NCBI GenBank assembly: GCA_029260075.1 | Contig: JAJDDY010000087.1 | Coordinates: forward strand, 186,001 to 250,000 | Length of the DNA stretch: 64,000 nucleotides | Source of the DNA: Phycisphaerae bacterium | GTDB lineage: Bacteria > Planctomycetota > Phycisphaerae > UBA1845 | Direction: 5' to 3' | Shown here: in pieces, positions 22,144-38,892 of the stretch | Numbering within the stretch: position 1 is the first letter of the stretch | How the letters are laid out: each line of letters starts with the position of its first letter | Made by a program: the position numbers and the translations under genes | Notes under the pieces: model-generated | Database searches by the model: none | What the model saw: the letters and a program-made list of their open reading frames with translations, nothing else | Told to the model about the DNA's origin: nothing

Positions 22144-22213
22144 CAACATCAGCATAGTCAGGCCAAGCGGGGGGGACAAGGATTGGGCTCGGGACGAGAC
22201 TTCAGCTACGGAT

Positions 22214-22356
22214 GGTGCGAGAAAGGATTCGCGCACCAGCGGATTCACGTACCAGCGGTCGGTGTAGCCCGCTGGGACGAGATTGGGCTCTGACGAGATC
22301 GGGCTGGGACGAGATTCCTATCTCGTCCCTCCGCTTGTGCAGGATTCCCATCCTGC
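22214..22356 (+). repeat. Three REP-like hairpins upstream of recQ
   Basis: Hairpins at 22214-22237 (arms GGTGCGAGAA and TTCGCGCACC, loop AGGA), 22306-22329 (arms GGGACGAGAT and ATCTCGTCCC, perfect, loop TCCT) and 22339-22356 (arms GCAGGAT and ATCCTGC, loop TCCC). The stems differ but the loop does not, as in the cluster at 36.8-38.9 kb. They fill most of the 244-bp gap before recQ. Confidence 0.8.
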
Positions 22357-36780: not shown

Positions 36781-36847
36781 TCAAGACCGCAAACGTCTCG
36801 CGGATGGGAATCCACGACGGGTGGTCCCGCTGGTGCGTCAAATCGCT

Positions 36848-37046
36848 GGTGCGTGAATCCCTTCTCGCACCTATCTTCCGTGTAGTCAGGTCCGCGCAAA
36901 ATAATGCGGATAGGAATCCGCCGAAGATTGTGCCGAGATGGGAATCACGGCACAGCGGGAGAGGAATCACGGCACAGTTGCTGGTGCGTGAATCCCTTCT
37001 CGCACCTGTTACCGATCACGCTGGTGCGTGAATCCTTTCTCGCACC
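36848..37046 (+). repeat. REP-like hairpin cluster 1 (five hairpins, 5' of RAYT)
   Basis: Hairpins at 36848-36871, 36906-36921, 36930-36953, 36983-37006 and 37023-37046. Three stem types occur: GGTGCGTGAA/TTCTCGCACC, GCGGAT/ATCCGC and GTGCCGAGAT/ATCACGGCAC. All close a four-base loop of AGGA/GGGA or its complement TCCT/TCCC. The 24-base types have one stem mismatch at the seventh position. This block and its linkers make up the gap 36691-37089 between gap and the RAYT gene. Confidence 0.88.
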
Positions 37047-37089
37047 TCCGTTCCCGGGGAATCCCTTCCCGCGAATCCCACCCAACGCT

Positions 37090-37638
37090 ATGCTCCCGGA
37101 CATGGGCCGCTACCGCGCTGACGAACACGTGCCATACTTCTGCACGATTACGGTACTGGATTGGCTCCCCGTCTTCATCGATCGCACATATATCGACGCT
37201 GTCATCGACAGCCTCAAGTACTGCCGCGATCACAAGAACCTCGCCGTATTCGCCTTTGTCGTCATGCCTAACCACGTACACCTGGTCGCGGGAACGGACG
37301 GCGATCTTCACAGCATCATGCGCGATTTCAAACGGTTCACATCTCGCACGATCCACGATCGGTTGAAGGCCGAGGGGCGCGTCTCTCTGTTGAAGTGGCT
37401 CAGCGAGGCAACTGAAAGTGCCCGACGAACACGCGGCGACCTCGGGTTGTGGCAGAGCGGATTCCATCCGCAAGCGATATACTCGCGCAAGGTGTTCGAT
37501 CAGAAGGTCCGGTACATTCACGAAAACCCTGTTCGGAAGGGGTTGGTATTGCAGGCGGAGGATTGGTGGTACAGCTCGGCACGCGAGGAGGCTGGTCTCG
37601 ACGAACTGTGCATGAGCGTAGATCCGATCGACTTCTGA
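37090..37638 (+). CDS. REP-associated tyrosine transposase (RAYT, Y1_Tnp family)
   Basis: 182 residues from ATG 37090; ATG 37102 (MGRYRADEHV) is equally possible, and the frame upstream is only repeat DNA. The HUH motif is VVMPNHVHLVAG. The C-terminal RAYT signature RYIHENPVRKGLVLQAEDWW is preceded by LWQSGFHPQAIYSRKVFDQK, where RAYTs place the nucleophilic Tyr; here Phe or the Tyr of AIYS occupies the area. RAYTs cut and join single-stranded REP hairpins and are thought to spread them. The length and the flanking hairpins on both sides support an intact gene, not a remnant. Confidence 0.92.
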   Translation: MLPDMGRYRADEHVPYFCTITVLDWLPVFIDRTYIDAVIDSLKYCRDHKNLAVFAFVVMPNHVHLVAGTDGDLHSIMRDFKRFTSRTIHDRLKAEGRVSLLKWLSEATESARRTRGDLGLWQSGFHPQAIYSRKVFDQKVRYIHENPVRKGLVLQAEDWWYSSAREEAGLDELCMSVDPIDF

Positions 37639-37653
37639 CGCTGAGGTGGAAAT

Positions 37654-37750
37654 GCGGATAGGAATCCGCGAAGAGTCGTGCCGAGATAGGAATCACGGCA
37701 CAGCGACACAGCGGGACGAGTGTGCTGGTGCGTGAATCCTTTCTCGCACC
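37654..37750 (+). repeat. REP-like hairpin cluster 2 (three hairpins, 3' of RAYT)
   Basis: Hairpins at 37654-37669 (GCGGAT stem), 37678-37701 (GTGCCGAGAT stem) and 37727-37750 (GGTGCGTGAA stem), in the same order as in cluster 1 and all with AGGA or TCCT loops. The order is conserved on both sides of the transposase gene. Confidence 0.88.
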
Positions 37751-37844
37751 TCCGATCCGGGGAATCCCTTCCCCCGAAGCCCGAATCGCCCCACGCTACC
37801 CTACATGGACCCCTATCACGCCGAAGAATCTTCACCGCCATCCT

Positions 37845-38189
37845 TGGGAATCGCAACGCCGTATGTGGACCCACCACACCCACTACGCTCACCGGAACCA
37901 GTGGTCGCGCATTTTTCCGAGGAACGCCGCTGTGATCGGGTAGCCTGATTGACTCCCGATGACCGAGTCGATACCGCAGTGAGGGCAAAGAGCGGTATCT
38001 CCACGAGAATCGTCATTGTCCCTCCACTCTTCAATAGCTTCGGGGGCGAAGACTTTCAGGCAGTAGAAACACCCGCATTGCTCGCTGGCTGTGATCTCAT
38101 CACGATGAAAAACGCTGCGTTTGTGCGCTACAATGTGGTCTGATTCAGTCATCACGGCAAGACCCCGATCAGTGGGAATCGCAACGCCG
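37845..38189. repeat. 17-bp direct repeats flanking the small C-terminal module
   Basis: TGGGAATCGCAACGCCG occurs at 37845-37861 and 38173-38189. On the minus strand both copies encode the zinc-ribbon end 'CGVAIP' in different frames. The second copy, at 37845, continues into KDGGEDSSA and a stop at 37816, which looks like the original C-terminus of the membrane protein. Confidence 0.75.
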
Positions 38190-38650
38190 CATTCAGAGCA
38201 AATCCCGGATACGTTGCCCGTCAGGTTGTATTCGCAATTGGTACAGTATTCCCCGAGACGCGCCCGTTGATCTGCCAAGCGGAAACGAATCGTCGCCACC
38301 CAGCGACATAACAGGCCCATCACAACCGGCAGCGCGATACAGCCAATCACCCGCGGCACGTAATCGGAGTCCCGTGCCCACCAGCTAAGGCTAGAAGCCC
38401 ACTCAAAATCAAACACCGCCGTGCAAAGCACTCCGTAGAGTAGAAACGTGATCGGGTGTCCACCGTATTTCGCAGCGAGCCATGCGCCGACAGGTCCTAA
38501 GGCAAGCACCGCATAATGCCACGGACCGTGCGGGTGATAGGTTTTCATCGGGCTCGGCTGAGGGATCGCTACGCTAAGGAATGAAATCAGTATCCACCAC
38601 CCCGCCAAGTACAAGACTGCTCGAGTTGCGTCATCGGACTCTTTGTTCAT
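37889..38650 (-). CDS. Membrane zinc-ribbon protein fused in frame to a small Cys-rich cytoplasmic module
   Basis: 253 residues from ATG 38650 (MNKESDDATR). Residues of about 1-115 hold four or so membrane helices (AVLYLAGWWILISFLSVAIP, VIGCIALPVVMGLLCRWVA). A planctomycete-style ribbon follows (YCTNCEYNLTG...CSECG). At Met 38152 a second module of 87 residues begins (MTESDHIVAHKRSV) with CGCFYCLKVFAPEAIEEW and CPHCGIDSVIGSQSGYPIT. Elsewhere this module occurs as a free-standing protein of about 85 residues. The fusion is therefore probably secondary; the second part may also be translated on its own from 38152. 17-bp direct repeats bound the insertion. Confidence 0.75.
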   Translation of the reverse strand: MNKESDDATRAVLYLAGWWILISFLSVAIPQPSPMKTYHPHGPWHYAVLALGPVGAWLAAKYGGHPITFLLYGVLCTAVFDFEWASSLSWWARDSDYVPRVIGCIALPVVMGLLCRWVATIRFRLADQRARLGEYCTNCEYNLTGNVSGICSECGVAIPTDRGLAVMTESDHIVAHKRSVFHRDEITASEQCGCFYCLKVFAPEAIEEWRDNDDSRGDTALCPHCGIDSVIGSQSGYPITAAFLGKMRDHWFR

Positions 38651-38685
38651 GCTGCGGCGTACCCTCATATGCGTGAACGCTTGCT

Positions 38686-38892
38686 GGTGCGTGAATCCTT
38701 TCTCGCACCAATCCTCCGAATCGTCGGCGTCGTGTAATGCGGATAGGAATCCGCAGAAGATTGTGCCGAGATAGGAATCACGGCACAGCTGGAGTGACAA
38801 GAGCATGGCACAGCGAGTGTACGCCGCTGGTGCGTGAATCCTATCTCGCACCTGTTACCGATCACGCTGGTGCGAGAATCCTTTCTCGCACC
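38686..38892 (+). repeat. REP-like hairpin cluster 3 (five hairpins)
   Basis: Hairpins at 38686-38709, 38739-38754, 38763-38786, 38829-38852 and 38869-38892, again with AGGA/TCCT loops; the last is a perfect ten-base stem (GGTGCGAGAA). The linker TGTTACCGATCACGCTGGTG between the last two also separates the last two hairpins of cluster 1, so whole units were duplicated. Confidence 0.88.

Follow-up and report, generated by a model that had tools for sequence, protein, structure and literature searches.

Introduction

Group 3 REPtrons, studied in Stenotrophomonas maltophilia and Marinomonas (Corneloup 2021, PMC8266576), are close counterparts of the repeat family described here. SELEX on group 3 REP-associated tyrosine transposases (RAYTs) revealed essential loop bases and tolerated stem changes (PMC8266576): the loop is essential, with one free position, and stem swaps are tolerated or have a modest effect, which resembles the present family. 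Both systems use short, perfect hairpins preceded by a 5′ tag, but the group 3 tag is the tetranucleotide GTAG while ours is GCT, the loops differ, and the group 3 evidence comes from SELEX while the present family is known from natural covariation in sequence only.

The RAYTs of subclass 2.6, or Bertels group 5, are ~179 aa long and carry the motifs NH[LIV]H, WQ, YIH[QN]NP and SS, with ~80 aa from HuH to Tyr, and the structures that flank their genes lack GT[AG]G (Quentin 2018, PMC6006769). They are described there mainly from Bacteroidetes, and the main text reports ‘atypical secondary structures’ recognized by manual inspection but gives no loop or tag rule.

Inverted pairs of two unlike hairpins, as in the present family, also form the E. 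coli BIMEs (Y-Z2) and other REP heterodimers. In the accounts of these elements in PMC3733652 and PMC6006769 the partners of Enterobacteriaceae heterodimers differ in loop length, whereas those of the present family differ in the foot of the stem or in its apical pair, in 94 of 94 close pairs. A preference for such heterodimers was noted by Di Nocera et al., who wrote that it ‘has no obvious explanation’ (PMC3733652). The REPINs of Pseudomonas fluorescens SBW25 (PMC3116915) share with the present elements the arrangement of two inverted REPs as a mobile unit with a RAYT; unlike ours, they join like with like, and a single long hairpin is their predicted fold.

Results

A RAYT gene within an array of inverted hairpins

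The window, that is, the whole 64,000-nt stretch of DNA analysed, is part of a 4.92-Mb, 93-contig genome, a Phycisphaerales-like MAG of the Planctomycetota. It contains an intact RAYT gene of 178 aa (37102–37638, + strand) with inverted hairpin units on both sides. The protein matches NCBIfam NF047646 (REP_Tyr_transpos; E = 1.4e-33, 115.8 bits against a cut-off of 80) and Pfam PF01797. Its best PDB sequence match, 4ER8 (E. coli TnpAREP), is also the best structural match of its AlphaFold model (pLDDT 92.9; Foldseek E 2.7e-8, Z 15.1, rmsd 3.2 over 136 residues). Both profile and predicted fold identify the protein as a RAYT; the model is that of a HuH transposase, with E. coli TnpAREP as its nearest structure. 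It carries the HuH motif N56-H57-V-H59, W116-Q, Y137-I-H-E-N-P and S157-S158 (numbering of P0001, without the first Met), and H57, H59, W116, Y137, N141 and P142 are invariant across 37 sequences. Residues 78–110, with a predicted helix at 93–106, have no counterpart in the sequence alignment to 4ER8 and are a candidate region for contact with the hairpin loop. Compared by motifs rather than by a subclass profile, its 178 aa, NHVH, WQ, YIHENP (with E replacing Q/N), SS and the ~80 aa that separate HuH from Tyr, together with relatives in Bacteroidota, resemble subclass 2.6/group 5.

The units adjoining the gene are inverted with respect to each other. On the left (37020–37070), a GCT tag and a long hairpin with foot GGTG and loop TCCT (37020–37046, +) are followed by the short hairpin GGGAA-TCCC-TTCCC (37057–37070, +), a similar one being present in orthologous loci L106–L110. 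On the right (37654–37704), the short hairpin GCGGAT-TCCT-ATCCGC (37654–37669, −) precedes a long hairpin with foot GTGC and loop TCCT closed by an apical T.A pair (37678–37704, −; GCT at 37704–37702). Farther upstream lie two GCT-tagged GGTG hairpins with loop TCCC (36845–36871 and 36980–37006, both +), between which are a short GCGG hairpin (36906–36921, −) and a GCT-tagged GTGC hairpin with loop TCCC (36930–36956, −). Downstream of the gene we found a GCT-tagged GGTG hairpin with loop TCCT (37724–37750, +), a short hairpin TCCGGGGAA-TCCC-TTCCCCCGA with one mismatch (37756–37777, +), a GCT-tagged GGTG hairpin (38683–38709, +), a short GCGG hairpin (38739–38754, −), a GCT-tagged GTGC hairpin (38763–38789, −) and two further GCT-tagged GGTG hairpins, one with an imperfect apical pair (38826–38852, +) and one with a perfect stem that lacks the mismatch at position 7 (38866–38892, +). 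Three more members lie elsewhere in the window: a long GGTG hairpin adjoining a RecQ-like ORF (22213–22238, −), a GCT-tagged GGGA hairpin with loop TCCT (22303–22329, +) and a short GCAG hairpin with loop TCCC (22339–22356, +). The stretch 37757–37828 (+) is a remnant, 72% identical to 37054–37125, in which the short hairpin is repeated together with a truncated RAYT 5′ end; short RAYT 5′ fragments are also found in MAG DeMMO2_9 (L294, L295).

A preliminary description of this DNA had recognized a REP/RAYT architecture, which the RAYT profile match and the flanking inverted hairpins bear out. Its four stem types, with an AGGA/TCCT (GGGA/TCCC) loop and a flanking A/T pair, are all present, and so are the three hairpins near recQ (22213–22356); the thirteen that it placed at the RAYT gene become ~15 plus one half-hairpin (36956–36978) in our recount of the region from 36798 to 38892. 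The GTGC and GGTG stems, described as separate types, are one family when oriented by the 5′ GCT tag. By anatomy the system is a REPtron whose REPs are of neither the GTAG nor the CGTC type: in place of the canonical 5′ GTAG (GT[AG]G) or CGTC they carry GCT.

A constant loop and tag on compensated stems

The core CG[A/T]GAWTCCYWTCTCG, searched as pattern CGWGAWTCCYWTCTCG, occurs in 362 copies genome-wide and pattern TGAWTCCYWTCT in 336, with 0 matches to the reversed control in either case. Detailed statistics were obtained from 1.25 Mb of sampled stretches of the source genome. Among the 349 hairpins with a four-base loop in this sample, 85 have the loop AGGA and 41 GGGA (together 126), while the next commonest loop occurs 6 times and shuffled sequence gives 5 AGGA and 2 GGGA; the excess is far beyond chance.

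Read in a common orientation, the long hairpin is GCT, a 4-bp foot, CG[T/A], GAW, TCCY, WTC, TCG and the complementary foot; the short partners read GCGG/GCAG/CGGG-GAW-TCCY-WTC and onwards. GGTG is the commonest foot in the sample (53), followed by GGGA (20), GTGC (18), GGAG (7) and rarer ones. Of 120 long hairpins, 117 carry the GCT tag, the base before it being C or T in 86%, and information reaches ~2 bits per position at GCT, C-3, G-2, GA, TCC, TC and TCG. Foot pairs −4, −5 and −6 are Watson–Crick in 117 of 118 hairpins each, against permutation maxima of 62, 68 and 90; a hairpin was included if 5 or more of its 6 lower positions paired, a criterion that inflates the counts, and the permutations were run under the same selection. 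A covariation score of 0.569 on 16 natural types (shuffled 0.115, slid at most 0.103) is an illustration rather than a test, the set having been hand-picked for distinct types. At position 7 the stem GGTGCGTGAA/TTCTCGCACC has a T.T mismatch and GTGCCGAGAT/ATCACGGCAC, in the other-strand reading, A.A; T.T dominates in the source genome (99 of 118 hairpins). Only 22 of 120 hairpins lie within ORFs of at least 250 aa, which span 75% of the sample. The hairpins gave no match to structured RNA in an Rfam search, and their strand bias relative to GC skew showed no clear pattern.

The preliminary description had proposed that structure and loop are preserved while stem sequence is not. The 336–362 copies of several stem types with one loop, and the compensated stem variation, agree with it; neither a single stem type nor a loop confined to the copies in the window was found.

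Other RAYT-like genes of the source genome (L001, L002, L004, L007, L009) have hairpin families of their own nearby: GGCAGGTC-atc-GACCTGCC, CACCGGCT-gga-AGCCGGTG and TCAGAG-CCGTGGGC-gcaa-GCCCACGG-ACA, the last in several stem versions. In some of these, too, a common loop sits on differing stems.

Orthologous systems in related genomes

Orthologues of the RAYT (57–65% identity) occur in nine related genomes and form a tight clade, below which the next best RAYTs of our first survey were ~35% identical. By name, the genomes with the closest orthologues are Phycisphaerales/Planctomycetota MAGs. Their loci carry the hairpin GCT-GGTGCGAGAA-TCCY-TTCTCGCACC, often with a short CGGGAA-TCCC-TTCCCG partner, inverted on the two sides of the gene, in a less regular layout at L104, L105 and L110. 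Core and tag are thus conserved together with the RAYT orthologues.

The core was found in 53 of 249 genomes, and every genome with more than two copies comes from one order. Across several families of this order the loop, the tag (for example, on 129 of 133 hairpins in G031) and the upper stem are constant, and the feet differ. We rejected the idea that the family is private to the source genome: a pattern requiring the T mismatch is too narrow, and CGWGAWTCCYWTCTCG gives the order-wide spread. A shared position-7 mismatch, pointed out in the preliminary description, holds for the two long types of the window but not in general, and we discarded it as a defining determinant, as position 7 is A–T in 33 of 34 hairpins of G084 and 26 of 32 of G106. 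Because orthologous systems usually have perfect stems, the T.T mismatch is probably derived and unnecessary for family membership.

A close RAYT orthologue was not found in the assemblies G106 (135 copies), G092, G071 and G032 (49–135 core copies). Such core-rich genomes, G106 for instance, may reflect loss of the gene, an assembly gap, relic hairpins or action in trans.

Comparison of occupied and empty sites between G031 and G071 gave one gap that spans a REPIN; exact insertion boundaries and a target site were not obtained from these sites, in which the flanks are too diverged and several REPINs are nested in a larger MITE. At G031:C35:58113, compared with G071 (L214, L224), a near-identical 21-bp direct repeat, TAGCATCCCCGGC[A/G]TTGGCGC, flanks the element and is single in G071, again with diverged flanks; such a repeat is unusual for an IS200/IS605-like insertion. 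Many compact REPINs of G031 (L172–L214) are carried in a MITE of ~170 bp, bounded by the terminal inverted repeats CTAGTACCGTGTTTCA, which other REPIN copies are without.

Close inverted hairpins are never of the same type

In the source genome sample, adjacent long hairpins in inverted orientation within 160 bp had the same foot in 0 of 34 pairs (permutation P ~ 1e-4); tandem neighbours did in 16 of 26. Same-type close inverted pairs were also absent from G031 (0/25), G071 (0/15) and, scored by foot and apical pair, from G106, G084, G098 and G113 (0/20 together). Over all seven Phycisphaerales genomes the count is 0 of 94 (from 34, 25, 15, 6, 3, 6 and 5 pairs), some of the relatives' loci having been picked because several hits lay there, though without regard to foot type. 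To allow for the common origin of copies of a single REPIN, every pair type was scored only one time in each lineage, which left 0 of 48 against 4.9 expected (P = 0.0026), a strong but not overwhelming result; counted by type, the source genome (G000) alone gives P = 0.19. The stem types are thus placed non-randomly, and the interchangeable stems of the preliminary description are an oversimplification, since the partners in a close inverted pair always differ.

Spacings of the pairs are discrete, with compact pairs at 31–34 or 39 bp and extended ones at ~80–98 bp with short hairpins between. The hairpins flanking RAYT genes lie ~650 bp apart, and there identical feet are frequent (L102, L103, L106, L107, L109). 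The ban on same-type inverted ends thus seems not to extend to distant ends, and the same feet around RAYT genes argue for an effect of proximity and against fixed left and right labels.

Folding of natural and homotypic pairs

We folded 21 natural convergent pairs as DNA. Two separate hairpins were optimal in 13, and the two-hairpin state fell short of the optimum by a median of 0.2 kcal/mol; compact pairs (31–34 bp) often still prefer a long-range fold, by 0–8 kcal/mol. When, in silico, one end was given the sequence of its partner, end-to-end annealing was optimal in 42 of 42 constructions, the median shortfall rose to 17.9 kcal/mol (21 measured) and a continuous stem of ~24 bp was formed. 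The computed energies suggest a reason for unlike partners: with different feet, both hairpins can coexist in single-stranded DNA, the form on which RAYTs act.

Loops and tags of distant RAYTs

Distant RAYTs with 32–48% identity, from Bacteroidota, Chloroflexota and Methylococcales, are accompanied by other loops (TGY, CTCT). Hairpins are enriched within 260 bp of these genes, with 153 in 24 kb near them and 68 in 60 kb farther away. In Chloroflexota the loop is CTCT/AGAG closed by T.A, found 32 times near RAYTs and absent among the commonest control loops; TGC/TGT loops belong to Bacteroidota, Methylococcales and some others. On a tree of 57 RAYT proteins the three loop classes, which were defined after inspection of the data, need 2 changes (minimum 2; shuffled mean 17.6). 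Loops are thus distributed with their RAYTs and stay constant in clades reaching across several genera or phyla, where the stems do not: we counted 24 distinct five-bp stems among 70 TGY-type hairpins and 8 among 32 CTCT hairpins, variable yet compensated. A conserved 5′ tag of about YGTA precedes the CTCT hairpins of Chloroflexota RAYTs (L254–L280), so that tag and loop seem to change in step. Close inverted pairs were of the same type in 0 of 16 cases in Chloroflexota; of the 19 in the TGY class, 5 have the innermost 6 bp in common.

That the RAYT recognizes the loop is a hypothesis well supported by these sequence comparisons. Loop-plus-tag recognition with a free stem would be the best explanation, given the clade-specific loops, the varied stems and the group 3 biochemistry (PMC8266576). 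The preliminary description had suggested that the shared loop may reveal how the transposase finds its target; clade-specific loops on distant RAYTs and covariation favour this, though the loop would not act alone, the GCT tag and the loop-adjacent pairs being equally invariant. It had also called a shared loop with swappable stems unusual, for which SELEX on group 3 RAYTs provides a precedent (PMC8266576).

Discussion

We propose, with somewhat more confidence than doubt, that the system is a REPtron of the subclass 2.6/group 5 kind with loop-and-tag binding, a scaffold stem and unlike close ends. The RAYT would bind single-stranded hairpins through the apical loop and adjoining pairs (GAW-TCCY-WTC), the unpaired 5′ GCT tag would be a second contact, and the lower stem would be a scaffold of any sequence that pairs. 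The elements are inverted hairpin pairs (REPINs), compact ones with two long hairpins and extended ones in the order long-short ... short-long; the RAYT of the window presumably mobilizes them, and its own gene repeats this layout at long range. Ends that lie close together would need to be unlike, in the foot or in the apical pair, since two inverted copies of a single end would pair with each other as one long stem and leave neither recognition hairpin exposed; identical close ends might alternatively be harmful as a deletion-prone palindrome. Against the proposal speak the long-range folds that compact pairs often prefer, the 5 TGY pairs with the innermost 6 bp in common, and core-rich genomes such as G106 and G092 in which an orthologous RAYT was not found.

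This last possibility leads to a competing explanation, in which same-type close inverted pairs are deleted as palindromes by SbcCD cleavage or replication slippage and stem variety is a by-product, dispensable for RAYT recognition. Such a purge was suggested for REP heterodimers by Di Nocera 2013 (PMC3733652), and the continuous ~24 bp stem of homotypic pairs would provide its substrate. However, SbcD gave no match at the curated cut-off in six Phycisphaerales genomes (weak partial matches in three), which weakens the idea, and in P. fluorescens REPINs that join two like REPs, with predicted long hairpins, are abundant (PMC3116915); we regard it as a serious but rather unlikely account. That the two feet are labels of left and right ends read by the RAYT, like LE and RE of IS200/IS605 transposases, would fit combinations that recur with a constant distance between the ends (for example, GGAC/GTGC 39 bp apart in G031, GGTG-GAA/GGGA-GAT 96–98 bp apart in G000), yet the same foot is often found at both RAYT-flanking ends, GTGC and GGTG feet occur at either end and each genome has many combinations, so this reading is improbable.

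A slightly poorer prospect still is subfamily drift, in which independent subfamilies gained compensated changes and loop conservation reflects recent spread, not recognition. REP families do commonly hold subfamilies with alternative complementary stem residues (PMC3733652), but loop, tag and upper stem are unchanged across several families of the order despite differing feet, and within RAYT clades the loop is constant across genera or phyla while stems are not. It is very hard to see the hairpins as intrinsic transcription terminators or RNA elements instead of transposon ends: they lie mostly outside long ORFs, but the 5 terminator-like sites of the region (1.7 expected from shuffling) include REP hairpins only as one short and one partial overlap, and the strict GCT tag, the RAYT linkage and the lack of an Rfam match also speak against it.

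More generally, and tentatively, since we hold it to be a little short of an even chance, loop and tag may determine specificity in this RAYT subclass, constant inside a RAYT clade and exchanged from one clade to another across phyla, with the stem free. A free stem would allow each close inverted pair to carry two non-annealing ends; stem diversity would itself be selected to keep both ends folded, and this selection for separate folding could explain the predominance of REP heterodimers. Heterodimers were known before but unexplained, and what is new here is the absence of same-type close inverted pairs and the folding rationale. With its fixed loop and tag, its free but compensated foot and its lack of same-type close ends, the family gives a quantitative and testable answer. 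It is also a natural hairpin series for swap experiments, and TCCY, CTCT and TGY are candidate loops for decoding how HuH transposases read hairpins.
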